Source of the DNA: Tetraselmis striata | Taxonomy: Eukaryota; Chlorophyta; Chlorodendrophyceae; Chlorodendrales; Chlorodendraceae | Assembly (NCBI GenBank): GCA_006384855.1 | Contig: VCJN01003216.1 | Location: 124,001 to 188,000, forward strand | Length of the DNA: 64,000 nucleotides | Reading direction: 5' to 3' | Shown here: piece after piece, positions 4,996 through 34,660 of the stretch | How positions within the stretch are numbered: position 1 is the first letter of the stretch | Layout of the letters: every line of letters begins with the position of its first letter | Position numbers and translations under genes: made by a program | The notes under the pieces: model-generated | Databases searched by the model: none | The model's input: only the letters and a program-made list of their open reading frames with translations | What the model was told of the DNA's origin: nothing

Positions 4996-6770
4996 CTACT
5001 GCTGCGCTGCTTGAGGCTCGCCAGCCGTGAGCGCCTCCTCTGCACTGCCAACAGGATCAGCAGGAGGGGCAGTCCAGCCGCCTGCATCCGCAGCAGGTCT
5101 GAAGAAGGCCATAGGGAAGGCGTCCACCTCCGCCAGAAGCTCCGACAGCTTGGCTGCTGCATGCTCCACGAGTGCTTCACCCTTCTCGGGCGTGGCTGCG
5201 GCAGCGTTACCCGTGGCGCCTGCAGTGCAGCACCAGGCAACGCGCAGCTTTTTGACAGGACGCCAGCGTCTGCTGCAAGCTAAGCGGGATACGAGAAAGG
5301 GACGAGACAGGCACGGGTCCATGAGGCACCGCAGCAGCGCACCAGAGGGGTGCAGATCGTGCGACATCCAGCCAAACCCAACGCCACCCTCGGGCAACAG
5401 GTGCTGGAAGCGCTCCGCGAGCTCCACCGAGCTCGCCTCAAAGTTGGCAGCGAGGTGTGGGCGGACGAGATCTGGCTGCAGGTGCATCATCATCGACGTC
5501 TCGATCTCGCCCCCGTGGATGCCATGCAGCTGCTCGTGAGCGGACACAATGCCCCGGGGAAGGCCAAAGCCAAACCAGCTGAGCACCACCACCAGCATGC
5601 CATGCCGCACGCGCAGCTCCCGCGCTACGATGTCCATTATCTGCGGCTGCCCGCCATGGCTGTTGAAGATTACCATCTTACGAATGCCGGCGCGGTGGAC
5701 CGACTCGCCGATGTCCAGCCACAAACTGCCATGGGCGGCACGGCGGCAGTAGTTTGCTGCCAGTCAGATACTTGTGGGAACACCAGCAGGCCGGCCAGTG
5801 GCTTGCCTGGCTGCAAGCAAGAGGCCGGCGTATCGCACCTGGTGAGCGTCTGGGCGCTGAGCGACAGCGTGCCTGGGAAGGCGGTGTGCTCGTCCGATTT
5901 CCCTATTGGCTGCATTGGCAGCACCGTGAGCGGCAGCGCAGGGTCCGCCAGCTCAAGCGCGCGCTTCAGGATCCCCTGGTTAATGTGCATGTCCACGGAG
6001 CATGGCAGATGCGGACCATGCTGCTCAATGGCCGACACCTGATGGCGCAGCACGTACGGCATCCTAGTCAGCAGTGCCGTGGCTGGCATTGAGGCGCAGG
6101 CAAGGGCTGCAGCTTGCGGGGGGGGGGGAGGGGGGGGGAGGGGGGGGGAGTACCGGCAGGATGGCAATCGGATCCACCCCGGAATCTTTCATCATGCGAA
6201 AATCCTCCGTGGTCATCTCGTACCATATCCTGAGCGGCAGCTTCTCCCCGTCTCCATTTGTCATGTGGTGGCGTGCAGGTGAAGACTGCTGCCCATGTTT
6301 GGACGATGCGGGTTCGTGTCCTGAGGCGCTCGGGCCGCCTGTGTCAGTGGAGCTGAAATGCAACTTGCTGGCTCAAGGTCTCCATGTCCCTCAAGTACCT
6401 CCAACCCCTCCCCCCAAGTCCTTCCAATCCCTCACCCCCCAGCACCCGCGTGCGCTGTGTTCAAATCTTGACAAGACACCCTCAGAGACAGCGACAGCAG
6501 GCTCGACAGACCTTCGGACGCTTCGCCCTCCTCGCCCTCGCCCTCGTCCAGGAAGCACGCAGCAGAGTCCTTGCACACCGGACCGTGCTGGCTCTCGCGC
6601 ATGGACCACAGGCGGCGCCGTGGGCAGCCTCCCCCCCTCGCACCAGCGGCGGCACGCTGACGACGCGGTTCCGGCAAACGGGCGCCGCCTGCCGCGGGCA
6701 GGCCGCTCCGCACACAAGGGCGGCTCGCAGCCATCAGGGCAGCCAGGCTGGGCGGTGTCGGCCTCTGCAC
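4996..6770 (-). CDS. Creatininase-family amidohydrolase
   Basis: Exons 6285-6154, 6038-5839, 5725-5343 and 5219-4996 join in phase. A possible first exon 6770-6480 also ends in phase and would supply an Arg/Ala-rich, transit-like N terminus, giving about 409 residues; otherwise Met at 6264 starts a 305-residue protein. Family metal ligands are present: AIEQHGPHLPCSVD (Glu, His, Asp), FNSHGGQ and HGGEIETS. The C-terminal block HDLHPSG/ATGNAAAATPEKGE matches the family and shows that the open stretch 5342-5220 is an intron, not coding. The family hydrolyses cyclic or small amides (creatinine, or formamides in bacterial riboflavin/F420 and mycofactocin contexts); the algal substrate is unknown. 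The intron after 6154 starts GTACT and then runs into about 30 bases of nearly pure C. Confidence 0.85.
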
Positions 6771-7646
6771 AGGACGTGCGCTCGTGGTACGGTGAGTACC
6801 TGTATATGCAAAGTAGGCGCCGCTATCTAGACCTCGCTGCCGGACAATTACTGCTTGCCTGTTTATTTAGTTGGGAAAGTATGGCAATCAGCCGCGATTC
6901 TAAAGCTGCGACACCTACCGCCGCGCGGCAGGGTGGCGACATAAAATTGCTGCTGTGCCGTCGCCCGCCAGAACCCTGCGGGCCTCGGGGGGCGCGGGTC
7001 CAGGTGGTGTCCCAACCAAATAATGTCGAGAAGTCGCTACAGGCAGCGAAGACTACCCGTTATAAGTACCGTTATCCTTGCTCCTTCCACTACGACGTAC
7101 TGTTGCAGGGCAGGTATAGTATAAGTGGTGGTGCTGATGGAAGTGATGAGGAGGATGACGCCAAACGACGCGGCGGAAAAGGACGCTAAATAATATATAT
7201 TACATGAGCTAGCAGCAGAAGGCGATATCGGAAATCACCAAAATAAAAGGCAATCAGAAAGGACGCTAAATAATGGTGGGGCTAAGTAGGAATGCTGCTG
7301 GAGGACGCCGCGAGTTTCGATGCTCCGAAACCAAAAGACGATATCTCCGCAGGATATCCCCCCCCGGCTCCCGCCCCCGCCCCCCCCCCCACCAAGGAAG
7401 AGATAGAAACCTCGCGTCCGCCATATAATATTTTTTCGTTCGTCCTAAAATACTTCTCTGTCGTGCTGATCGATGCGTATTTCTCGCGAATGCGCCAAGC
7501 TCGCACGCGCATTATCGCGTAGCGTGCTCGTACCGCTTGACAAGTCTTCTGCCTGGCGCGACTCTGGAACGGTCGCCACGTTGGCACGTTCTGCACGGTG
7601 GTGACACACAGTTGCGACAGCTCACGCCTTTCTCGCACGTGTCCTG
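6771..7646. other. Divergent intergenic/promoter region
   Basis: It separates the creatininase gene (-) from the GNAT gene (+) and should contain both promoters. It holds a copy of a 75 bp dispersed repeat (7196-7270) with a short direct repeat of GGACGCTAAATAAT at both sides (about 7181 and 7261). An AT-rich CATATAATATT at about 7422 could be a TATA element for the GNAT gene but is 220 bases before the chosen ATG. Confidence 0.4.
7196..7270 (+). repeat. Short dispersed repeat, copy 1 of 3
   Basis: The core TTACATGAGCTAGC..GCGATATC..AATCACC recurs at 11232-11315 in the same orientation and at 48222-48296 inverted. The copy is flanked by GGACGCTAAATAAT on both sides, which may be a duplicated target site. 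No coding capacity. A small non-autonomous element is the simplest reading. Confidence 0.6.
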
Positions 7647-9631
7647 GTGGCAATGCGGCTTCTCCGGTTCCCACCGTCGTCCGAGGCGCTACCGCCGGGA
7701 GCTGGCTATCGGGCCCCCGCTTCTGCGCGGCACGGTCTCGCTGTCAGCGGCCTGCGGACGCCGCTGCGCCATGGCACACTGCCAACGCGTTGCGCAGCAG
7801 TACCAGGACAGCGCAAGCAGCGAAGGGTTTCAGCGGACACATTAGAGGGACTGGAGGAGGAGCTGACGGAGGGGCAGCTATGCCTTATGACCGGAGAGCC
7901 GGACGCGTGCGGGTACATTGCTAGGCCAGTAGGTGAGATATTTAAATGACAAACCGCATCATACCATGCCTTCCGGTCATAAGGCATTAACAAGCCCCAT
8001 CCAACTTCACACTCTGGCCCGTTGCTGCAGGCCATGCTGACCTCGAAGCCTGCGAGCAGCTCCTGCGCTCCGTCCATTTTGACACTAGCACACAGGACTG
8101 GTCCATGATCATGCGCTACAGCAAGGATGACGTCTACGGCGTCTTCCATCGCGATTGTATGGTAGGCCTTGTGTCCGCGGTCCCATACGCCAGCAGCGAG
8201 CAGGTAGCATCAGCGGCAGCGGAGAGGTTTGGTTGGCTCGGCAATGTCGTGGTGCACCCGGACTACCGGCGCAAAGGGCTGGCTCACATGCTGCTCAGCT
8301 ACGGTATTCGCTTCCTGAAGGCCCGTCACAACTGCGAGTGCGTGCTGCTGGATGCTTCTTCCATGGGCAAGCCTGGTGTGTGCGCATCAGACTCTCCACC
8401 GATGCGTTTTCCTGTTGCTCCTAGTGCCCTGTACTTTTCATGATGAGTGTGCACGGCACACATTGCCGACTTTACGGCTTACCTTACCAACCCCATTACA
8501 TCACCACCGCATCAATTTATGACAACTGCAACCGCACTCCCGAAGCCGGGAAACGATATCAGTGGCCAGGCAGCCCCTTCCCTGCCACCCGGCTTTCAGC
8601 TGCGATATCACGCTTCTTGCTGACTCCCCACATGTTTGTCACATGCGCAGTGTACAGCAAGCTCGGTTTCAAGGACTGCGCCCTCGTGCATAGGATGCGG
8701 ATTGTGGATGCGGGCGCAGCAGAAGCGTGGGCACATCAAGGCGCCCGCGGTCACGGTGCGAGCACAGAGTGTTTCACCATTGAGCCCCTGCGGCGTGAGG
8801 CCATGCCAGATGTTTTGGCACTGGATTGCGAGGTGTTTGGCGGCGACAGGTGATGTCGGCTGGTCATCCATTAGCTCCTAGTACGTCATGTCAGAGCTCT
8901 TCATTTTATCGCACCCCTTATGCACACCTGCGAATTGAAACATGACATTCATTGTAATGCGCCGCGCCGCGTATACGTTGCCTGGCCGTCATTTTACTGT
9001 TAGTCCTAAATGCGCAGGAGCCTTCTTCTGGAAGAATGGATGAGTCACATACCCGGCACAAGTTTCCAGGCACGAGACGCCGATGGTAGACTACAAGGCT
9101 ATAGCTTGTCACATTCCAGAGAGGTTTGTACTTTGGACCTGCCCTGGGGTCACATGCTCCTGCTCTCCAACCCCGCATGGCGCTCACACAGAGTATGGAC
9201 CCTCTGCAGCTGACACTGTGGTGGCTGACGAATGCACTGATGTGCGCGGTCTTCCTGCATCGCCTTGAATGCACAACCTGCAGGAGTGTGACTATGTCGG
9301 ACCAGTGGTGGCGACGGAATGGGATGTTGCCCGAGCACTGATGAGAGCCTCTCTGTCTCAACTTCTTCACGCCGGGCGCCGGAAAGAAGTGGTAATTATG
9401 GTATTAGGGGGGCTCACTGAGGACTGTGAGGCGTGGCAACCAGAAAACAAAACAGCGTTGGGTGTGGATTGGGCAATGGAGCTTGCCATGTATGCGGGCT
9501 GCGTCTGTGATGAGACAACCACGCGGCAAGCGCTGCATGCTGCTGATTCGGATGAGTCGGATGTGTACAACAGCCGGCACCCGGGAAGGCTGGATTTCAC
9601 CGTGGCGTGTGGTTCCCTTGATCTGGGCTAG
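7647..9631 (+). CDS. Double GNAT-fold acetyltransferase
   Basis: Exons 7647-7932, 8031-8375, 8651-8849, 9018-9123 and 9284-9631 join in phase to 427 residues. After an Arg/Ala-rich N terminus (about 60 residues, plausibly organellar targeting) comes a GNAT domain: WLGNVVVHPDYRRKGLAHML is the acetyl-CoA-binding motif A (R-x-x-G-x-A) and GKP-VYSKLGF, split by intron 2, is the usual C-terminal GNAT strand. The C-terminal part (GRLQGYSLSHSR through DYVGPVVATEWDVARALM) matches the second, YitH/Acetyltransf_18-like GNAT half seen in tandem GNAT proteins. Such enzymes transfer acetyl from acetyl-CoA to an amine; the substrate is not predictable here. The start is the first in-frame Met of the open frame; a downstream Met is not excluded. 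Confidence 0.85.
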
Positions 9632-10139
9632 CTGCATACTTGCCTGCCTTTCGCATTTTGCCTGAGGCGTGTACAGCCATGCGCTTGGGGACCTTCTTCG
9701 CCCAGGCGTGAAATTGTATATGCCAATGCGTACCTGCAAGCCTTGCGGATACGAAAGACATTCCGCAACAACGCACACGGAGGGTGACATTCCTGCATGA
9801 GCATTCCTACGAATGTATATGTATTCTGTCAATGTTGCCAATGATTTGTGTCTATTTTACTTGGATATTCAATAACTGCTTATTGCCCAACAACTGTATA
9901 CACTCTGCATTTAGGCACTAAGAGCCGTTTTCGCACTTGAATCCACCCGGACTACATATTTACCGCAGGCAATTCTTGATCCACAGTGTTGTCCCTTTGT
10001 GTTTTTCAATTGGAAAACAAAAAAGAAAGAGAAATTTCTTGGCGGGGTCGCGGCGGCTCGTGCGGCACGTGATGGTGTTCCTGTGTTCCTGCGAGTGCGT
10101 CGCGTCGCTCGTCAGCCTGTGTTGCTATGACCCTGGTCA

Positions 10140-16545: not shown

Positions 16546-17532
16546 CGGGAAAAAAAGGGATGTACCGGTACAAGGGGGCGCGTCTTGTTTAAAAGTAGCA
16601 GCGACAGCCCGATGGGAAAGTAGGCGCGCGAATTGAAGTGCCCGCGCCACTCTATCTGTCTCGCTACCCTAACTTAAGTACCAGTACTGAACATAGTGAT
16701 TAATTATAGTATCATCGCGCACCGCCCTGTCGTTTGGCGCCATATTTTGGGGAGCAATGGCGTCTTCTGCGCCAATGCTCGCGAAGCTCGATCGCGCCGC
16801 CGTCGTTACCCAGTACCTGCGACTCACCTGCCACGGCAGTTCCCAGGTAGATCCCACCAGAAAGGCCCCGCTCTGAATGGGCGCCTATACTTGGGGGCCT
16901 GCCCCGGACTTCCAACCGATCCCGTCGCGCAGTTTTGGGTGCCGTGCCAGCCGACTCTGAGACGACGCTCAGCCGAGCAGCGATGGGAACCTTCTAGCCT
17001 TCTAGGAACTCCTTCGGAATATCCGAGCAGCGCGGCTACCTTGCTGGCGCTTCGTCAAAATTCGATATTTTCTCCAAGCCCGCCACCAACCAGCCAGGCG
17101 CCACTGTACAGCCTTCACGGCGGCCGCCGCTCCTTGCCCGGGTCGCCACGGCCCTTCTGGTGGCCACGCCGTGTTCGCCTGCGATTCGACGACGACTGCC
17201 GCTCACCGGCCTTCGGGCTTCGGCGCACGCGAGGGCGTCGCCCTGCTGTGGCCTGCCTGGCGGCTGTGTACCTGAGCACGGACGACCTGAGCACGGAGCG
17301 GTAGGCACAGCTGGTTTGGCCCGCAGCGGTAGCTGATGTGACTCTCAGGCCAGCACCCTTATGTAGAGAAGCGGGGGTGGGGTGAGGTCGGGTTGGTGGG
17401 GGATGGGGGGGGTCTTTCTTTCCCTCTCTTTTTCGTCCGCCCAGGGGGAGGGAATTACTGAGATGTTTCCCCAGCCCGCGCTGTTGCCAAGGTGCTGTAA
17501 GGGCATAGGATGGTGATGGTGGTGGTGGTGGT

Positions 17533-17570
<38 letters not shown>

Positions 17571-17706
17571 GGGGGGGGGGGGGGGGGGGGGGGGTCCAAG
17601 TCGTATCAGCGTCCCGCTCACCGCCGTCAGCGAGCCGGTTTTTTCCTTTGAAGGATCTGAGATGGGGCGGGACGGATGTGTACATAGGGTCGGCGACGGG
17701 GGCGCA
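16546..17706. other. Intergenic region with TG microsatellite and G-run
   Basis: A 202-residue open frame (16696-17304) has no recognisable domain and composition expected of GC-rich noise, so it is not called. From 17534 a (TG)n tract of about 18 units is followed by about 25 G. The upstream region of the acidic-repeat exon should be here. Confidence 0.35.
17534..17594 (+). repeat. (TG)n microsatellite followed by poly-G
   Basis: About 36 bases of TG are followed directly by about 25 G. Length and position are read directly; assembly length of such tracts is unreliable. Confidence 0.9.
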
Positions 17707-19545
17707 ATGGCTGATGACAGTGACGACAGCATGCCCGACCTGGCGGGCAGCAGCGGCAGCGACAGCGACAGCCATGGCACTGGCAGCATGCCCGGCCTGG
17801 CGGCGCAAGACAGCTCCAACGACAAAGTTCGCGTCAATGCAAACTTCCCCGTGGGCTCAAGCAAAGTCGGCGGGAGAACGAAACGCCGGCAGCCGGCAGG
17901 GGCCGACGGGATTCCTTTCCCAAGTGCGAGGGAAATGCCACCTGCCGCCATGAACCAGCTGATGGGGATGCTCCACTGCATGGGGGCAGACTCTTTGGGG
18001 ACAACAGAGGAGGACATGCGGCACGTTTTTGGGGCGTTGACCGAGCAGATGATGTGGGGCAATGACATGGACGGAAGCGACGGCGACAACGAAGGCAGCG
18101 ATGGCAGCAATGACAGTATGCCTGGCCTGGCTGACGACAGCTCCGATGACGAGGCCGATGCAAAGCCCACTGCAGCCTCGAAGACGAGCGCTTCAGGGCC
18201 AACGGACGAGCAGATGCGGCAGGCGTACGCAGAGTTTTGCAAGCATGCAATGGTTGGCGGCGGCGACGCCAGCGATGACAGCATGCCCAGCCTGGCGGGC
18301 AGCGATAGCAGCGAAAGCGATGGAAACGACAGTATGCCTGGACTGGCTGATGACAGCTCCGATGACGAGAGTGACGGCGACGATGTGCCCCCCAAACCCT
18401 CTCTAAACAAGCTCGACGGGGAGGTGAAAGGCCGGCAGCAGGCAGGCCCCAGGCCCCAGGAGACATACAAGCCGGTGCCGAGGGACGCCGGCAACGACAG
18501 CGACAGCGATGGGAGCGACGGCAGTATGCCAAGCCTGGCTGACGACAGTGACAGCGACGACAGCGACGACATGCCAAGATTGACGGACAACAGCAGCAGC
18601 AGCAGCAGCAGCGATGAGGGCTGGGAGGACGACCGGACAAACAGGTGCGTTTGGGGCTGGGGGTGCCTGGGTTTGCTCACCTGCCACCAACCCTGACCAC
18701 CATTGTGCCCAGCCTCTGCGCTGTGCCCCTGGCATCGATAGCCACCCACGTGGGCCAGTATAGGTAGTCGCCGATGAGTAGGGTGGTCGACGGAGGGGAA
18801 CAGGAAACACACAAAGCTTGTGTGTTTGTGGGGGGGGTTCGTCTTTGACAGCTGGGGCCAGAAGCTATGCACTGAGACACCCCCCTTCCCCCGTTATCAC
18901 ACACACACACACACACACAAACATTGCAACAGCCACATCTACCCCTCTCCTTTATGTTAGGGTAGATGCGCTGGGCGATGCGGCTGTGGCATGGTACCGC
19001 GTCCCTTCTCCCATTCAGACTCCCGCGAGCCGCTGCAGCCTTGTCTTGAATACCGTAGGCTAGCTTGCTGTCGATTTAGGTGACCGCCGTAGCTTTCGGG
19101 GGAATCCTGGAATCACTGGATTCCATAGTGGGCTCAATCCAAGCAGTGCCACTACTCTCTTCCCTTCCCCACCACCCATCGGAATAGCCGAGGGGAAACC
19201 TGGCTGGCCCTGAACGGGCGGAACTCAGGGGTGGCCGAACGGCCTCGCGCCACCCCGACACAACACATGCAACGACCTACCTGCCACCATGCGAAACACT
19301 GCTTTGAACCTGCACTGACAGGGCGGGCTGCGCTCTGGTAGGCCCCCCAAGTCTCAGCCCGGCGCGCGGAGCAGCAGCGTAAAGCCGGTGAGGATCGGCC
19401 ACCTGTTGCACTTGCCTTGGCAGCACATGGCGGGCGCTCGGCACCCAACCCGCTGTGCACTGACGGAAGGGCTTGCCGGCAGGGAAGCGCCAAGGCAGCC
19501 AAGCCCAAAGCACCCAGGAAGACCATCGGGCTTGAGGAGTGCAAG
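17707..19545 (+). CDS. Acidic SMPxLAD-repeat region, probable N terminus of the downstream ankyrin-kinase-KEN gene
   Basis: Exon 17707-18644 starts MADDSDDSMPDLAGSSG and encodes about 312 Ser/Asp-rich residues with seven copies of a short motif S-M-P-x-L-A/T followed by D/S runs (SMPDLAG, SMPGLAA, SMPGLAD, SMPSLAG, SMPGLAD, SMPSLAD, DMPRLTD). Between them are two Met-rich helical stretches (about residues 75-115 and 160-180). Exons 18961-19054 and 19483-19545 (GSAKAAKPKAPRK, basic) can be joined in phase and lead in phase into the ankyrin exon at 20042, giving a 1447-residue protein. The second exon and its donor (ACC/GTAGGC) are weak, so this could be a separate gene ending at 18696. Acidic MP-containing repeats suggest a disordered docking region; function unknown. 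Confidence 0.5.
18898..18920 (+). repeat. (CA)n microsatellite
   Basis: About 11 CA units in the presumed intron between the acidic exon and the next candidate exon. Confidence 0.85.
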
Positions 19546-20041
19546 GTGAGTGGGTGTGCATGCGCACACGTGTGTTTCTGGGCTCCCCCCTTACTGATGG
19601 TTGTGTTCCTTGCATCACTTCTCGACATTGGCCATGCCATTTCTGCCCCCACATGGCCGCCTGCCTCCCTGCCTGCGTAACGCAACATACACACTCACAG
19701 ACATGCGCCCGCCCAGGGAGATGCGCATCTGCACTGCCCTCCCTGCTCCAGCTGTGCGGTGTTGGGCCTATAATGGTGCCGGATAACCGCGGAACTAACG
19801 CGGAGCACGCTTCACCTGGCGCCGCAGGAGGCGCGTCAGCTCCTGAGCAGTCTACCCAAGTCTGTCCATAAGGACCCACAAACACAGGCGGTGAGGATGG
19901 CCGTGCTGTCGGCGTGACTGACGTGGGCATGTCCTGGGCGCGGCTGGCCAGGCAGGCGGGGTTGCGGGGGGGCGGTGGCAGGCAGGACAAAACTGTGGAG
20001 ATTTTACCCGCTGCTAACTGCTGCTTTGGTTCTGCTCGCAG

Positions 20042-21784
20042 CTTGCGGGGAAGCTGATCGCCGCTGTGGGGGAGGCGGAGAAGGATCCCAACTCATTTGT
20101 GCCCAAGGGCCATTTGCTGCACCATGCTGCGGAGCTGGAGTGCGTGCCGCTGGTGAAACCTGCAGTGATCATTGGCTACGATGTAGATGAGGTCCACCTG
20201 GGGGACGGTGACACCCCCTTGGTCCTGGCTGCTAAAACCGGCAACGCCGAAATGGCGAAGGAGCTTCTGGCGGCAGGGGCCGGCGCTGGGGTCCCGGCCG
20301 CCGCCGGGAACTGGGCGACCCCGCTCGCTGCTGCCGTGGCTCGGTCGCACGTGGAGGTCGTGAGGCTGCTGGTGGCGGCGGGCTGCGACGTGGAGCGGGC
20401 CATTGGGAAGAGGAAAGGCTCGACCCCGCTCCGCGCCGCGATCAACAAGGGCCACCTGGGAATGGTGAAAGAGCTGGTGGGGGCGCCGGGCTGTAAAGTG
20501 GACGGGGACAGCTCGAGAGATAAGGCCACCCCCCTGCTTACCGCCGTAGAGCAGGGGCACGCGGGCATTGTCAAAGCGCTGTTGGAGGCAGGGGCCAACC
20601 CGAACTTGGACTTTGAAGGCAGGGGCAGCACCGCGCTGTACAGGGCCTCAGGGAAGGGCCATCTGCAGATGGTCAAGACGCTGTTGGCTGCCGGCGCGAA
20701 CCGAAATGTGCGCTGCGTGAGGGACCAGGGCGCGACCCCCCTTGTCGCCGCCACCATCAACGGGCACGCGTCCACAGTGAATGCGCTGCTGAAAGGAGGC
20801 GCTGACCTCCATCTGACGGACGACAAGGGGCTCGCGCCCATCCACCACGCTGCCGACCAAGGGCATTGCGACATCATCCGGATTATGCTGGGCGCCGGGG
20901 CGCAGGTCAACATGTGCACATTTACCACGCGAGCGACGCCTCTGGCGCTGGCAGCCATACGCGGTCACCGCGCGGCAGTCCACCAGCTGCTCCAGGCTGA
21001 AGCGGACGTGCGTGCGGCCACCTGTTACCTCTCAGACGAGGGTCATCCCTCCGCTGCGTCCTTTCTCAAGCGCCTCGCCAAGGCTGGGCAGCAGGCGTCG
21101 GCGCAGATGAGCGCAGAGGCGCTGGCGGAGGAGCAGCGCCGGCGTGACGCGCTGGCGGCGGAGCTACTGGCGGAGGAAGAGCGGGCGGCGGCCGGTGCAG
21201 GTGGTGCGGGGGGCGGCAACGGTGCGGGCCTAACCTATGCATGCTGACCTGCTGGAGCCTGCCATGCTGCTGCCCTGCCGAGGGTCCCGGCGGGGTCAGT
21301 GAAGGCGTGTGTGTGGCGCTGCTGCAGCGGCCCCCAAGGAGAAGAAAAAGAAAAACAAGAAGAAAAAGAAAAAGGCGCGAGGCGGAGGGGCCGCGGCTGA
21401 TGGAGTGGACAGCGATGAGGAGGACCAGGTGGGCCACTGGCAGTCCCCTGCGGCACCGATAGTATAGCTATGATGATGCCCCTGCTTTACGCATACGTGC
21501 AGCACACTACACGGCCATGGTTACACCGCGCTGCGCCAGGGTGCCAGCCTGTGCCGCAGTTGCCTGCCTCTACCAAGGCGCCCCCCGTGTGAGCGTTCCC
21601 TGTGCTTGCTGTCGCGGCAGGTGGACGACAGCCAGGAGATCGCCGACCTGCTGGCATTGGAGAGCAATGCTGAGCCCGACGTCGTCCTGCGGGTGCGTGA
21701 GTGGCCGTTGGACACCCACGCAGTGGCTGACGAGGGCCAAGGCAATCCTGAAGCGGACGTAGTGCAGCAAGCGGACGGTGAGCA

Positions 21785-21818
<34 letters not shown>

Positions 21819-24800
21819 TCCCCAAACACAGTGATTAGGTCTGGGCCGGTGCAGGCACAGCATTCACCGGCCGTTCACTGATTGCTGTTCTTTCTGCTGA
21901 CTGTAACCACCGTCCCCCCTCCCTTTCCGAACATCTCCACTCCTTTAGACGCAAAGGCAGAGGCAGGGGCAGAGGGAGAGGCAGGCGGCGACCCCGAAGA
22001 TGCCTTTGCGCTGATGGCGGAGCTCGAGGAGATGATGCTCGAGGTGGAGCCCGCGCAGGAGGTGGCGCCGGCGGCACCCGAGCTGAGCGCAGAGGAGCTG
22101 GCAGAGGAGCATCGCCGGAGCGAGGTACTGGCAGAGGAGCTGATGGCGGAGCTGATGCTTGCGGAGGAGGAGGAGCTCATGGCTGTGGTCAGTGGGAGCG
22201 ACGCGCCAGGTGCGGGCCTCGCTATTTCATGGCCGCCTGCTGCCTGGCTCTAGGCTGTGCCTCTGCCATGCTGTGCGCTGGCGGGTCTCAGATGGGGGGA
22301 ATGAAACTGACACGTGCCGCGCTGTTGCAGATGGCACGGACCCGGAGCAGAGCCACGGCAACGACGAACCGCGAGATCAAGAGCTGCCCATGAGCGGCAG
22401 CGGCGCCGTTGGTGGCCACAGCCAGGACAGCCCCTCCGCGGGCGTGGCGCAGGCAGTGCCGGGTGAGCATTCCAGCTACCCCGCTGCCTGGCGATACCGC
22501 GCACTGGACAACGCGGTCCATGCCTGTGAATCTGCCGTTGAAGACCAAAGTGTGACAGTGCCGCTGGCTGCGCCCACCTTCCTTGCAGCAGAGACCGTCA
22601 GCGGCTCCAAGGCGGACCCTGCTGGCCTGGATGGGGAGCCGGCGCTGGAGATCGAGAAGGCCGGCAGCCCGCGTGAGCCGAGTGCTGCCGGAGGACAGGG
22701 CGCCCCTCACGCCGGTGGGATGGGGGACGTTCTCACCCTGATGGACGGCGATTTAAAGGTGTACCAGCACAAGGTGCGCCTGCTCGGAGACAGACCTGCC
22801 GGCGCCCACCTGCTGTTGCTGGCTGCACTCGCTGCTGACAATGTCATCGCAGTGCGTGAACCGTACCCGGGCCATTCAGTTGATTTCTCAGAGCCCCTGC
22901 AGCGGTTCCTTTGGGGGGGGGGGGGGGCGGGGGGTAATCCTGAAGACCCTGTGGGCATGAGCAGAGTCCGGTAACTCTAGCAGTCCCTGGGGGGCCTTAT
23001 ATGGATAGCCGTTCACTGCTCGCATCGCTGAATGGACATCAAGTTACTAGAACGTGCGCTGCTTGCTATGACGACTACCGTAGTATGTCATGCCGTTGCG
23101 CTGACTATGTTGCGGTTCTCGCGATGTATACCCTTATATAGACGGATATGATAATATCATCACTGATCGCCTGGCACTCATTTTGCTCACAGTGACCAGA
23201 CTACATCGGTATGTACTGCAGCACTGTCGCCGCGAGAAAGCCTGGGGAGCCGCTGTGCCAAAGCATTGATTTTGTCGTTCCGCAACATCCCGTTGATGTG
23301 GTATGCTTATGGTGTGATGTGCGTACACCATTCTGTGGCGTTTCTCAATTCGCCTGTGTAGGGGGGGAGGAGAGAGGGGGTGGCGGGGGGGGGGGGACGT
23401 AAGAATGACCGCTAAGCGGACCTCTACAAGTGTTATTACGGGAGGGAGGGACCGCGTGGGCACCACTGATTTCATCTGCAGTTCACCCCTCACCCTTCAG
23501 TAGGCCCAACCGCACATCCGAATGAGTCAGACATGATAGGCAATGTGTGAGGCTAAGCCACCTACATGACATGGGCTGTCTATCTCATCAACTTCCCTCG
23601 GCACTCTCTACGTCGTCTTGCCGCCCATGTGCAGGGGGGGGTCTCGTCATTATGATGATGATTTCAGACGACGCGGCCGCTTATAACTGCAGCAACGCAA
23701 ACACTTCACCACACAATACAACAATCACAATCATGGTGTCGCCTAGGCACGTGATACATAACTTCTCTACTGCGCAGCCCGCAAACTGTGATTCCAGGCA
23801 CAATTGCGATTGAGGGGCGATGACCCGGGTAGTGAGCAGGCGCCGCGGCACTGTCATGATTGAGGCGCTGTCGTGTAGTGATGTATCACACACAAACACA
23901 CAGTATACACACATTATACACACACAAATTATATACACACATCATATAGACACACAAATTATGCAAACACACATTATACACATGGGGGCCGAAATGGATA
24001 TACGAACACTGCGAATAAAACCCGGCCTACTTTGCGTGTTCAAGGGCAGACATGAACAAAACCCTGGCGGAAGCGTCCATAGCGAAGGCTCCTACACGCA
24101 GCATCCAGGCCCATTTTGAGGCTTGTGTTGCGGCTGATTATTATGGGTGTCTGTCGGCGGCACCCGGCTGTGAATGCATCCATCTGCACACGCTTGTTCT
24201 GTGCTGCAGCTGCTGACTTGTTTTGGTGCTGCGACCCGACACCCGACGCCCCCGCAGGTGCTGGGCCACGGCTGCGCGGGGACGCTGTGCCTGGAGGGGT
24301 CGTGGGACGGCATGGGCGTGGCGGTGAAGGTGCTGCTGCGCGAGCTGGCGGCGGATGCGATGGAGGAGAAGCGCATGCTGCGTGCCATCACGCACAAGAA
24401 CGTGCTGCGCTTCTTCACCTCCACGGGCGATGCGTCGCGGCTGTACCTCGTGCTGGAGCTGTGCCAGTGCAACCTGGAGCAGGCGGTGCACGGCGGCCGG
24501 CTGGCGCTGCTGGGCGCCGACGGGCGGCCCAACGCCACGTGCATGCAGCTGGCGCGCGGCATGGTGGAGGGCGTGGCGGAGCTGCACCGCATGGGCGTCG
24601 TGCACCGCGACCTAAAGGTAGAACTATGCCCCTCATAATAGCGCCCCACACTTCAATGCCATCGGTGTGAATGAATGTATACAACAGGTGCGCATCTATG
24701 GGATTTTCAGTGTCGCAGGCTCTGGGTTTGTTTGGCGAAGCTTCATTAAACATGATATTACATAATTATTATGTAGCTAAACATACGCACACACACACAC

Positions 24801-24848
24801 CCCCCCCCCCCCCCCCCCCACACACACACACAAACATACATACACACC

Positions 24849-24881
<33 letters not shown>

Positions 24882-26131
24882 GTACGCATGCACATGTATA
24901 GCCCGTCAGTACTTGCGGGGTATGTTTAGCAGAGCAGAAATGCCCCGCCCGCCCGCGGAGCCCTTTCGGCCGGCCGACCGCCCGCCCGACGGCCCGGCAA
25001 CCCTCCGACGCCCGGCAGACAACGACTGCCGACCGGCCGCCCTTCCGGCCGTCTGCCCATACGTACTCACCCGTAGCCCGACCAGCTGACCTGCAGACGG
25101 AGGTGACGGACCGACCGGCCGACCGCCCACCCATCAAGCTGCTGGTTCGCGACTGAAACATAGCTTGTGCTAGTCTTGGGTCGCAGCTTGTGCCCCACTT
25201 TTGACAGGACGGCCGCACAGGCACCACGTATTCAGGGAGCATCGCGGAACGCTAGTAGTGTCTCCCGTTAATATAGAAGGATGTGGCATATTTCCGTGCC
25301 TCCTGTTGTTTCTGACACTTGGCTGCGGCCCCGTTTGTTTCTGCCTGAAGCCGCGCAACGTGCTGCTGGCCACGGAGCCCGACGGCAGCTGGGTCGCCAA
25401 GATCTCGGACCTGGGCCTCTCGAAGCACATCGGCCACGGGCAGAGCTCGTTCATGAGCGACCGCGCGGGCGGCACGCGCGGCTGGCAGGCGCCGGAGCAG
25501 CTGCAGCCACCGCCGGGTAGGAGACACGCGGGGCGGCCCGCAAACCCAGTGCCCCCAGCCGTGGCACGGCAGCGGCGGGCCGACCAACGCCCTTTGCCGT
25601 CTGGGCGGTATCCTTTATGGGTCAGGGGGGTTGGTGGGGGTTCTACGCAGTAGGGTTTCCAGGCTACCATGTTCATAGGGCTTTGGCATTTATAAGGGTT
25701 TGTGCTAGGGCATTGTTGGAGGCATTCTTGGGGGGCGATTTCAGGGATTCTAAGTCAGTCCTAAGTGAAAAGGGCATCGCTTGGTGATGGTTATACAATA
25801 CCCTGGTATATCACCATGCTGAGAGTTATATGACCCTTGTGGATAACCCTGTTGATGAGGTTTCCCTGTCTGCCGGGCTTTGTTGTTTGGCTGTTGACGC
25901 GCGGGCTGGCGGGCGGCCCAGGCGGGGTATACCGCATGCAGAAGCGCATGGACATCTTCAACCTGGGCTGCCTGCTGCACTACTGCTTCACCGGCGGGCG
26001 GCACCCCTTCCCCGGCGAGGGCTTCCAGCAGATGCTCAACATCCTGCACGGCAACGCCGACCTGTCGGCGCTGGCGCACCTGCCGCTGTACCGCGCGCTC
26101 GTCGGTGGCATGCTTGCTGTGGTGCGGCCTG

Positions 26132-26163
<32 letters not shown>

Positions 26164-26865
26164 CGCCTGCCTGCACCTGCCTGCGCCTGACTGTACTTGC
26201 TCCCCGGAGAGAAGGGGGGGGGGGGGGGGGGGGGGCGCTCGCGAGGGTGCAGTGCTGGGGGGCTCGACGGGCGGGTAGGGATGCTTAGACAGCGGGCATT
26301 TCTGTGGATGCGTCTCCATACCGCACAAACAGAAACGGTCCGCGGATAAGTAGCGCTTCCCCCCCCCCCTGCTAAGAGGGAAAACCTATGAAACCGCGGA
26401 ACTAGTTGGAGCGTACCACCAGTACCACACGGAATTCCCGGCGCGAAGCTGCAAAACAACTGATTGTTTTTGTCTTTCCCCACGGCAGACCCACGGATCG
26501 ATGGTAAGGCTACGGTATGTGCGTAGCTTATACAGTAAGGATGTGCCTCCTGTGGTACTATGTGCACATCGGTACTTATCGGCCGTATAACCCCCCTCTC
26601 GAGCGCCACATCGACCCGCGCAATCGACCTGATGGATCACAGCGGTCATGGCCCAGCTCTTGGGAGGTATTGGGGAGGGCGCTGCCAACTTTTGACGATG
26701 GCCGTTTCGGTCCATCAGGTCGAAACGCCGAATGCATTCGGGCGATCAGTGCTGAGCTGAGCCTCTCGGTGTGCTTTGGGGTCGACCGTGCACCGCCGGG
26801 ACACGCCCCACACCCACACAGCCTCACCGTCTTGCTACCCCCCCCCCTCCCCTCCCCATTGTCCC

Positions 26866-26910
<45 letters not shown>

Positions 26911-27130
26911 CGACAGACGTGTAGGCCAATGGGGCGTTGCGCCTGTGACCGTATGTCTGGACGGAGAGGGGGGGGGGGGGGGCACACAAGAACTCCAACA
27001 CTGATACCAATGAACATCCCCAGATGCACACATCCCCCAACAAACGCATACACACCCCCCACGCAAACACCTGGACGGGCAGGCAGGCAGGCGCACAGCC
27101 AGATTCAGCACCACGCGCGTGTGTGTGGGT

Positions 27131-27179
<49 letters not shown>

Positions 27180-29330
27180 TTTGGTGGCCCCCACCCCCTC
27201 TCTCTCATTCTTGGGGTGGTGGGGGTCAGAAAGATTGAGCTCCCGTTCAAGTGGGCAACGGACTGCGCAGCGGCGGGTGCCTGGGGCTCAGCCAGTAGCG
27301 CACGGGTTTCTCCAGGATATAACAACTCGGATGAGTTTTATCGCGTAGGTTATGACCCTCAGACTTTTGGCCCGCTCGACGCCACACAGACCAAGTTGAG
27401 GAGGTGTGGCATCACGGGTGCGCCAGCCCCGATAGCCAGTCAGAGCTCTGAGTCCGAGGCTACGCTGTACGGGGGCTTGACTTTTCTCGTGCTGGGTGTG
27501 CTCTGTTGGCTTTTGACGGCCCGTTGTGCGTGTCGCCCCGCTCGCCGCCGGCAGGACCCGGCAGCGCGGCCGAGCATGGAGGCCATCCAGGAGCACCCCG
27601 TGTGGTGGGGCGCGCAGGCCCGGCTGCAGTTCCTGTCCCGCCTGAGCGACTTCCTCGCGGTGGAGGAGCGCGCCGGGCTGCGCGAGAGCCTGCACTCGGT
27701 GACCGCGGGCTGGGTACTCGGTGCGCGGCCCGGGCGGCCCCAGAACCCCATCGGCAGCCGTCGCCATCAAATGGCACCTGGAGACGTGAGCATTGATGCA
27801 TCGGCGCACCGTCCATTTATATTGAGATTGGAATTCGTTACCACTTCATTCCTGCCAGTCTACTTCTAAATACTAAGGTGCTGCATGAACCCGCATAGGG
27901 TCGGCCATACCCCGTAGCCCTCCGAAGGCCAAGCAGTTTCCATTTACAGTACGGGTGCCGACGCGGCGGTGAGGAGGCGCGTACTTGAGGCTTTTGGCGG
28001 TCACCTGGTGGCTCTTTCTTAAGTTTGCACCGATTCCGGTTTTAGTTCGTCTGAATTAGGACTCGACCAAATGGGCGCTGTCTCACCGGTGAACTCCTCC
28101 GCACCCCGTTGGCACCCGCACCACTGAGTGCGTCCGCGAGCGCATCCTCCAAGCCATCGCCGAGCTGTCGATGCGTCGCCCCCCTCTGCCTTGAGACCGC
28201 CGAAAAGAGCCCAACTCCACGTCCGCCCCAACTACCCATGCGCCAACTGGCTGTTCGTTTGCGGCGTGCCGCGCGCGACACTGCTGAGTTGACCCAAGCC
28301 CCACAAGATCGAGGCCAATTTCTGTGTTTTAGTGTTATTATCCACCGTGGTTCCGCGGCGTCGGTGTTGTCGGTACATCTGATTTAGCCCTCCCGGAATC
28401 GGTATGTGATTGCTTCGACAGAAGAGGCTGGCCTTGAGCCCACACGCTCTCTCCCTCTCCCTCCCCCTCTCCGGTATGGAATTGCCTTACGCGCTCGGCG
28501 TGTGCATCAATCCGCAACCGCCTCATCGCCCCCGCTGAGTTTCACACCATCGGCCTGACGCACATAACCGACCATCGCCAACCTTCCGGAGGTGTTTGGC
28601 CAACCCCTTTCGCGCCGAGGAGCAGGGGGGGGGGGGGGGGGGGTCCAACTTTTGGCGATGGCCTGGTTTGGTTCACCAGGGCGAATTTAGTCAGAACGGC
28701 AAACGCGTACTGGGCCGGTCAGTGCCGTGTCTCTCTAGTGCGGCGTAGCTTTGCCCTGCGCGTCCATAGCCTGGGTGGTTTCGCGGAATGCGTCAGCAAT
28801 ACGCTGACGGCACTGCGGTGGCGATGATTGCTTCCGCACGCATCTAGTGCCCCCTACCCTTCCAGTGTGAACGGGTGGAGCCCCGACGCGGCGCGGATGC
28901 CGTCCCGCAGGCAGAGATGAGTGGATTCATGGTGGACTGGGGGCGAAGGGGGGGGGGGGGCGCTCAGAGGAAGCTGACGGATGCGGCGCTGCGGTCGGCA
29001 GGGAAAGGTGCTGGGTCCTGGATGGAGACGCTCGACGGCCCGGTGCAGGCCGGCCTGCAGATGGGGCACCAAGGGGCGTACTACGACGGCACGGTGGCCT
29101 CGCTGCTGCGTGCCGTGCGCAACGCCAGGGGCTACTGTCACCAGTGGGGCGCGCCGGCGCACGCGGCCCTCGGCGGCGCGAGCGAGGAGGCGGTGCACGA
29201 GTACTTCGACGCGCGCTTCCCCTGGCTGTTCCCGGCGACGTGGCAGTGGGCGTGCGACAACCCGCAGTGCGCCGCGGACGAGGACCTGCAGAGGTGGCTG
29301 GGCCGGTGGGCGGCCGGCCACAACAGCTGA
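20042..29330 (+). CDS. Ankyrin repeats + acidic linker + IRE1-type kinase + KEN ribonuclease domain (RNase L-like architecture)
   Basis: Eleven exons join with every phase matching: 20042-21221, 21328-21428, 21621-21777, 21949-22209, 22331-22462, 22589-22758, 24258-24617, 25351-25516, 25922-26121, 27555-27713 and 28968-29330 (1082 residues). Residues 15-345 hold about nine ankyrin repeats (TPLxxAxxxGHxxxVxxLLxAGA). Residues 350-665 are an acidic/lysine-rich linker. Residues 667-935 are a kinase with LGHGCAGT, VAVK, HRDLKPRN, SDLG for DFG, and GTRGWQAPEQL, a sequence typical of IRE1. Residues 940-1082 are a KEN domain (WMETLDG, TVASLLRAVRN, YFDARFPWLF). IRE1 and RNase L dimerise through kinase-KEN to cleave RNA. 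No transmembrane segment is seen, so it is probably cytosolic, as RNase L is. The 1.5 kb intron 22759-24257 is the weakest link; the splice gives GDLK-VLGHGCAGT in phase. Two catalytic KEN positions are non-canonical. Confidence 0.8.
21786..21818 (+). repeat. Poly-C tract just inside a 5' splice site
   Basis: About 32 C begin nine bases after the exon end at 21777 (GTGAGCAT then C). One of at least eight such intronic tracts in this window. Confidence 0.9.
23886..23980 (+). repeat. Degenerate CACACAAATTATA microsatellite
   Basis: Alternating CACACA and ATTATA/ACAT words inside the 1.5 kb intron between linker and kinase exons. The rest of that intron (22759-24257) shows no exon-like sequence apart from a G-run near 23360-23398. 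Confidence 0.7.
24785..24885 (+). repeat. Compound (CA)n / poly-C microsatellite in kinase intron
   Basis: (CA)n, about 20 C, then more CA/CCCA repeats in intron 24618-25350. The same intron carries a CGGCCGACCGCCCG-rich stretch at 24945-25140. Confidence 0.85.
26869..26909 (+). repeat. (CA)n microsatellite
   Basis: About 20 CA units in intron 26122-27554, near a (GT)n tract at 27130-27178 and a run of about 30 C at 26133-26162. The complementary CA and GT tracts could pair in the pre-mRNA. Confidence 0.9.
27130..27178 (+). repeat. (GT)n microsatellite
   Basis: About 23 GT units, 376 bases upstream of the 27555 exon and complementary to the CA tract at 26869-26909 in the same intron. Confidence 0.9.
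27876..27930 (+). repeat. Dispersed repeat copy in kinase-KEN intron
   Basis: GCATGAACCCGCATAGGGTCGGCC followed by CCCGTAG and CCTC.GAAGGCC recurs at 58070-58126 in an intron of the R3H gene, with weaker similarity for about 60 bases upstream at both sites. Only words are compared; the element type is unknown. Confidence 0.55.
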
Positions 29331-32700: not shown

Positions 32701-34660
32701 TTAAGCCTCGATCTCTTCGACGTCGTCAAGCTCTTGGATGTCGTCAGTGGCTGGCAGCCTGTTCACCTGCAGCCGCGCGGCGTCGCTGCGAGCCACGCCG
32801 CCTCGCCCGTCGCCTCGGGACACCTCGCAGCAGTACTCGCCCGCCTGCTCCGGCCCCACACGCATGAACGCCAGCGTCGCCTCCGCCTCGCCCGGCAGCG
32901 CCTCCCCGTCACGCAGCCACTGGTAACGAAGCTCGCCCCCGCCACTCGCACCCACTCGGAACTCCACCGCCTCGCCCTCCCGAACCGCAGCGTGTTGCGG
33001 GTGGTCGGTGATCGTGGGCGCCGCTTCCGCCACGGCGACCGCTGCCTCGCCGCCGCCTTCGCCGTCCGAATCGCTGTTGGTCACCCGGCTGCCCACCGAG
33101 CCACGCTCACTGGCCGCCTTCTCCGCGTCGAGAGCAGGAACATCGTCGACGTCGTCGAACGCCACCGCCGCGTCTGACTTGCGATTATCCGGGTCGCCTG
33201 CACGGTCGCCCCGCGATCGGCTCACCGGCTTGAGCGCCGGCGCTTTCACGCCGCGTCCCGTTTCCTTCCCCATTGGTTTGCCGGCCGCCTTTTTCTCCGA
33301 CGCATCCTCCCCCTCTTCCTCCCCCTCGGCACTCTCGCCATCGTCTTCGCTATCGGTCTCGCTCTCAGCACTCGGAGCCGGCTTCTTTTCGGTCGGCTTT
33401 TTCGGCTGCCGGTCCGCCGTGACAAACAGCTGGCAGTTCTCCGACTGCTCGCTCCCGCCTGCTCGGCAGATACGTGCGCACAGTCAGTAACGCCGACATA
33501 ACCCCTTAGCTCCGCGTCATTCAGGCAGGCACGCAACTTCCCAGCAGGCTCAGAGCACTGCCGATGGCGGTCTCCCATTTCCAATCCCACAAGGGCAGGA
33601 GCCTACCGTCGTTGCTCACGACGCAGAAGTAGTATCCCGAGTCGCTGGGGCCGGTGTCTGAGATGACGAGCTCGGGGGACTGGCAGGTGTCGTCAAAGTT
33701 GAGCTCCTTCTGGTCCTTGAACCAGCGGTACTCGAGCGGGGGCTTGCCCTGGGGGGGGGGAGGGGGTCGTGAGGGGGGCAATCCCTGCGGCCAAGCGACC
33801 AAGCCACTGCCGCCATCCACTCAGCATCTCCCATCTCTGTCCACCCCTCCCTTCCCGGCCGCCATTCACCTTTGCCTCCACCGCCAGCTTGGCGGTGGAG
33901 CCCTCCACGCACTCGAGGTAATCGTCCGGCTGCTCCACAAAGCCGAGCGCCGGCACAACCCTGCGGGCAGGCAAGCATAGCCCGCATGGTGACACGGTGA
34001 GGACAGACCAAGCGCAGGACGTTGGGCGGATTATTGACTATATGCGTACTGTAACGATTCGCAGCAGTTTGACATTGGGCATGCCGACAAGGGTCGGATG
34101 ACTGTCATTGAAAAGCACAGAAAGGGGGAATGGGAGCTTACTTGAGCTTGGCGTTGCGGCTGACGACCTTCCCGTCGGCGTTGCTGACCACACAGTGGTA
34201 GCTGCCGGCGTCGACCATCTGCACGTCCTTCAGCAGCAGCTGGCGCACCGCGCCCGAGTCGCCGCGCAGCGCCTTCTGCCCCTTGAACCACTGGTAGCGC
34301 AGCGGCTGGCGGCCCTGTGGACGGCCGGGTGGGTGCCACAGCCAGGGGACGGCGCTCATCTCGCGGTGCAGACCCCCCCCCCCCCCCCCCCCAGAGGCAC
34401 ACATGACACGCTATCCAGCACAACTGCGGAGCCCTGCGCAGACTGGCTACATTACACAAATACCATTCATATGATTGCCAATATGAATATGCAGACTTGA
34501 CTCTGTGGCACACTGACACGGGGATTCTCATTCCACTGCTAATACCGAGTCTTATCCGCCTTTATTTGCGATGCGGTAGATATATACATACATGCATATA
34601 TACATACATACATATATACATACATACATATATACATACATACATATATAAACATATATG

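Follow-up and report, generated by a model that had tools for sequence, protein, structure and literature searches.

A single gene of the marine green alga Tetraselmis striata, a core chlorophyte, encodes one chain in which a linker connects nine ankyrin repeats to an IRE1-type kinase followed by a KEN domain. The gene lies in a stretch of 64,000 nucleotides (assembly GCA_006384855.1, contig VCJN01003216.1, positions 124,001 to 188,000 of the forward strand), hereafter the window, whose coordinates are used throughout. It belongs to a soluble ankyrin-kinase-KEN family that probably arose within the Tetraselmis lineage from a copy of the alga's own IRE1, the architecture of RNase L being reached by convergence. 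The architecture, the family and the selection acting on the gene are established here, and the signs of descent from IRE1 are strong.

Gene structure and domain architecture

Eleven exons between 20042 and 29330 have AG/GT borders and join in phase into a single open frame, which ends in a TGA stop codon at 29330. The joined protein matched Pfam profiles in the expected order, Ank_2 (2.3e-46), Pkinase (1.2e-34) and Ribonuc_2-5A (2.3e-9; 37.9 bits against a cut-off of 23.3), and the ankyrin-linker-kinase-KEN reading given in an earlier note on this DNA is thereby confirmed. That note had placed the locus at 20042 to 29330; its exons are real, but 20042 is not the start of the gene. A database model of 1487 residues (P0001; jgi/Tetstr1/439035 TSEL_027527.t1) has additional 5' exons reaching back to about 16757. 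Its 5' part matched the window at 16757-16834, 17671-18645, 19331-19387, 19477-19545 and from 19825 on, and its kinase-KEN part was 100% identical to the window gene over the region searched. The features of the gene are as follows.

16757..16834, +, probable first coding exon (P0001 residues 1-26; 100% match to the other allele's database model; predicted start codon)
17671..18645, +, acidic N-terminal exon with repeated SMPxL motifs (96% match to P0001 29-353; no indels between alleles; ratio of nonsynonymous to synonymous rates, dN/dS, between alleles 0.167)
19331..19387, +, small exon of the database model, the weakest exon (84% match to P0001 350-368)
19483..19545, +, short exon ahead of the ankyrin exon (splice sites, phase, P0001)
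19828..19890, +, second short exon ahead of the ankyrin exon (splice sites, phase, P0001)
20042..21194, +, ankyrin exon: nine repeats, then the helix motif MSAEALAEEQRRRDALAAELLAEEE (Pfam Ank_2 1.3e-48; nine anchors)
21328..21428, +, polybasic linker exon KKKKNKKKKKKK (phase; a similar stretch at locus C744, weak, E 0.40)
21621..21777, +, acidic linker exon (phase and splice sites)
21949..22209, +, linker exon that repeats the helix motif of the ankyrin exon (motif comparison)
22331..22462, +, linker exon (phase and splice sites)
22589..22773, +, linker exon whose last residues are the first kinase strand, GDLKVYQHK (aligns with paralogs and IRE1)
22774..24257, +, linker-kinase junction intron, 1484 bases (same position at loci C744 and C2415; spliced out in record P0229)
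24258..24617, +, kinase exon, VLGHG loop to HRDLK (Pkinase 1.2e-34)
25351..25516, +, kinase exon, PRNVLL and DLG to QLQPPP (phase, splice sites, Pfam)
25922..26121, +, kinase C-lobe exon (phase, splice sites, Pfam)
27555..27720, +, end of kinase and start of KEN (phase, splice sites, Pfam)
29002..29330, +, KEN exon with RNARGYCH replacing RNxxxH, and stop codon (Ribonuc_2-5A match; Tyr at the catalytic His position)

The nine ankyrin anchors, located with a pattern fitted by eye, include two that deviate from the usual TPL/TAL. No membrane span was found in P0001, whose highest 19-residue hydropathy, 1.62, falls within an ankyrin repeat, as compared with 2.36 (span) and 2.30 (hydrophobic N-terminus) in the alga's IRE1. 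Pfam and hydropathy thus bear out the earlier remark that the gene has no IRE1-type lumenal domain or span. The exon with SMPxL motifs (17671-18645) matched no Pfam family and, among the loci fetched, it matched the allele contig alone.

A family of related loci

A KEN profile search of the 224-Mb assembly matched seven places: the window, C1921 (an allele, described below), C2160 (the alga's IRE1, P0121), C744, C2415, C85 and C2411. This number is a lower bound that rests on the KEN profile. Family kinase-KEN sequences were present at three further loci, C744, C2415 and C85; the first two have long ankyrin arrays upstream on the same strand, and the third is interrupted by a contig end. The C744 array (L011 2060-4366) repeats a 102-base ankyrin unit 22.6 times in tandem with 87% match, and such near-equal repeats are a sign of recent repeat growth. 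At C744 the ankyrin array and the helix motif share a single open frame; at C2415 the ankyrin frame and the helix motif that follows are in different frames, and an intron or frame break must therefore lie between them. At C2411 the 20 kb retrieved contained a kinase and KEN but gave no ankyrin match. This divergent kinase-KEN gene (L018 about 6728-9842) keeps RNxxxH, and its non-ankyrin N-terminal region includes a stretch resembling a kinase end (GRPFFW).

Protein searches yielded 335 different proteins together (best 120 of 1185, best 120 of 794 and best 120 of 773). Among these matches, in tables read by eye, some of them with shortened Pfam lists, P0001 alone combined ankyrin entries with Ribonuc_2-5A; RNase L itself was absent among them, so the scarcity of ankyrin-KEN proteins outside Tetraselmis is no proof of absence. 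Two proteins, P0231 and P0232, fall within the family clade, and Pfam shows only a kinase in both. No algal ankyrin-KEN protein appeared among the titles and abstract openings searched. In a table of the HEPN superfamily, KEN is fused to a kinase 'along with ankyrin repeats, CCCH in some' (PMC3710099); the word 'algae' is absent from that paper, and its available passages contain no algal KEN case.

Descent from IRE1

The window kinase-KEN is 42% identical to that of the alga's IRE1 (P0121, TSEL_031257; 254 bits), whereas its identity with human RNase L is 21% (50 bits). Three introns, of the same phase and at matching places, are common to the family and this IRE1 (TsIRE1). The two also share kinase motifs and a polybasic stretch, which stands ahead of the TsIRE1 kinase and in the linkers of the window and C744 genes; it would fit a breakpoint near the juxtamembrane part of IRE1, although this is suggestive only. 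TsIRE1 differs in its hydrophobic N-terminus, lumenal PQQ domain (PF13360) and membrane span, which are replaced in the family by ankyrin repeats joined to a soluble linker; TsIRE1 also has a C-terminal region that is CCCH-like by eye. The same alga retains a membrane IRE1 beside the soluble family.

On the question of KEN kinship raised in the earlier note, the best trees group the family with algal IRE1. For the first tree 31 proteins were selected; P0143 and P0144 lacked the anchor motif and were dropped, and the remaining 29 were combined with eight typed rows. Four long rows were removed for the second, and three rows were added for the third. We chose the rows ourselves, and those of C85 and C2411 are partial. 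Similarity, shared introns and trees together are strong signs that the kinase-KEN part derives from IRE1, and on these grounds the RNase L domain order in the alga is most likely convergent. Of the 'independent or ancient' sensor proposed earlier, independence is supported, as is the replacement of the lumenal sensor by ankyrin repeats; great age is not supported, given the grouping and the introns shared with the same alga's IRE1.

Active sites of the kinase and KEN domains

In alignment, the window kinase keeps VAVK, HRDLKPRN, DLG and the activation segment; by these motifs it would not be a pseudokinase of the RNase L type; the aligned RNase L row has HQDLQ for HRDLK and lacks the activation segment. 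The KEN R and N are invariant in seven aligned rows. Five residues after that R, the window gene carries Tyr (RNARGYCH), a change that the earlier note does not mention, whereas C744, C2415 and C85 all carry His. Of the 335 listed proteins, 128 fit the KEN motif pattern (the 207 unscored include many kinases without KEN), and 127 of these have His; the single Tyr is that of P0001, the window gene's other allele. HEPN enzymes are described as carrying an Rx4-6H motif whose His is required for cutting (PMC3710099). Because the window gene has lost a catalytic His that 127 of 128 proteins keep, an active nuclease should not be assumed. Judging from these residues, it most likely encodes a family member with a weak or dead nuclease that has been retained as a regulator or partner.

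The loss of His in the window gene would also suit a family of ankyrin-guided kinases or scaffolds in which KEN serves for pairing only and cuts no RNA. So would the residue ahead of the RN motif, which is Tyr in the window gene, C744 and RNase L but Cys in C2415 and C85. Yet R, N and His are kept in C744, C2415 and C85, and C744, alone of the four loci, keeps Tyr as well. We regard the scaffold reading as possible, though rather unlikely.

Kinship with RNase L

Vertebrate RNase L, an antiviral enzyme, resembles the window gene in carrying ankyrin repeats (nine), kinase and KEN in that order in a single chain with no membrane part; unlike it, RNase L has 2-5A contacts and the KEN His. The shared order and repeat number could mean true kinship, an ancient ankyrin-kinase-KEN gene having persisted in algae and vertebrates but disappeared from other lineages, and approximately unbiased (AU) tests of a joint RNase L clade gave p > 0.05 in two of three cases. 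Against this stand the far higher similarity to IRE1, the introns in common with the alga's IRE1 and the tree placement, as well as the third AU test, in which p was 0.016 once two more family members were included. The 2-5A contacts W60, K89, F126 and E131 (PMC5927464) are not kept either: the best of seven registers matched one of the four, in a comparison that used a hand-typed human ankyrin sequence and left R155, R309 and H311 unscored. Kinship with RNase L is thus very improbable, and the soluble ligand suggested earlier is not borne out in its RNase L form. An OAS1_C profile found no match in the genome, in a search that recovered none of 14 controls.

One gene or two

Two neighbouring genes, one for ankyrin repeats and one for kinase-KEN, might have been joined by mistake: among the ten introns from 21195 on, none is longer than the one at the linker-kinase junction, an in-frame ATG is present at 24174, and a transcript of the window gene was not seen. 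The window (GDLKVYQHK), C744 (GHLRVFVHQ) and C2415 (GDLKVFPHQ), however, all have the first kinase strand at the end of the linker and an intron in the same position, and the C744 intron is 140 bases long. Furthermore, P0229 (542 residues, a 4083-base JGI record), which we take as a spliced transcript of a paralog, matches C2415 in seven blocks from which six introns are absent, the linker-kinase intron included. The helix motif is common to the ankyrin exon and a later linker exon, and P0001 also joins both parts. The in-phase join, the conserved junction and the record crossing it at C2415 support a single spliced gene, as first proposed, with the intron borders corrected to 22774-24257; an error of joining is scarcely credible.

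Alleles and selection

The copy on contig C1921 aligns with the window at 96% through exons and introns alike for 13,000 columns; beyond some 4.8 kb of additional sequence, two more stretches match, one of 273 columns (85.7%) and one of 2,068 columns (90.5%). We read this copy as the other allele of the window gene, and P0001 carries its variants. The additional 4.8 kb or so falls at window position about 16690, just upstream of the probable first exon.

No indel separates the alleles across the 14 exons compared. Synonymous and nonsynonymous differences numbered 8 and 0 in kinase plus KEN, 8 and 11 in the ankyrin part, 5 and 6 in the linker, and 12 and 8 in the N-terminal exon, the contrast between ankyrin and kinase-KEN parts being significant (Fisher p 0.008). 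With 8 synonymous against 0 nonsynonymous differences, the window kinase-KEN remains under purifying selection. The replaced KEN His might have marked a decaying duplicate, but the indel-free exons and the lack of nonsynonymous change in kinase-KEN leave that idea hardly tenable.

Other observations

Three other open reading frames of the window gave matches: one on the minus strand at 32704-33483 of immunoglobulin type (Ig_3 1e-8, I-set 7.5e-7), unexpected in a green alga; a creatininase frame, also minus, at 4999-5763 (3.5e-37); and a leucine-rich repeat frame on the plus strand at 675-1403. A viral origin of the family was considered and rejected: a single alignment-based scan of viral contigs produced 44 pattern matches, and tblastn identified no relative among them.

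Proposed origin and function

Several points weigh against an IRE1-derived, convergent family of RNA-cutting sensors. Support for TsIRE1 plus family drops to 62/49 once four long rows are removed, and the AU test gave p-values of 0.068 and 0.106 beside the 0.016 of the third data set; the trees alone, for this reason, do not settle kinship with RNase L or IRE1. The ankyrin-to-linker joints at C744 and C2415 are putative, and P0229 stops short of the ankyrin part; nor, as noted, was a transcript of the window gene seen. In a structure model built from the KEN exon alone, the Tyr shares a helix with R, with N and with the His at R+7, which might serve in a shifted Rx6H motif. Finally, ligand, dimerisation, RNA cutting, the partner role and the place in the cell are matters that we infer.

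Under descent from IRE1, a copy of that gene would have shed the lumenal and membrane portion and acquired an ankyrin array. The array would bind a ligand or protein partner and so bring chains together, the kinase, which looks intact, would bind ATP and autophosphorylate, and the KEN domains would pair and cut RNA. The window member, which has Tyr where its paralogs keep His, would most likely serve as a regulator or partner. By comparison with how IRE1 and RNase L work, it is most likely a ligand that drives the IRE1-type kinase-KEN part to pair.

Tetraselmis striata is host to the Polinton-like virus TsV-N1, and related insertions occur in the genus (PMC10120064); a defence role for the family is plausible by this association. 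It is a more doubtful, speculative step to suppose that the alga evolved its own RNase L-like defence, in which fast-changing ankyrin arrays (22.6 repeats at C744) on soluble IRE1-derived nucleases would recognise viral or stress signals and a nuclease-dead member would gate the active ones. A separate origin of the RNase L layout, if true, would mean that evolution could couple the IRE1 kinase-KEN engine to a soluble sensor on more than one occasion, and would provide a natural test of what is required of the ankyrin part. It would also make the family a candidate sensor of virus or RNA stress in an alga that hosts a Polinton-like virus.
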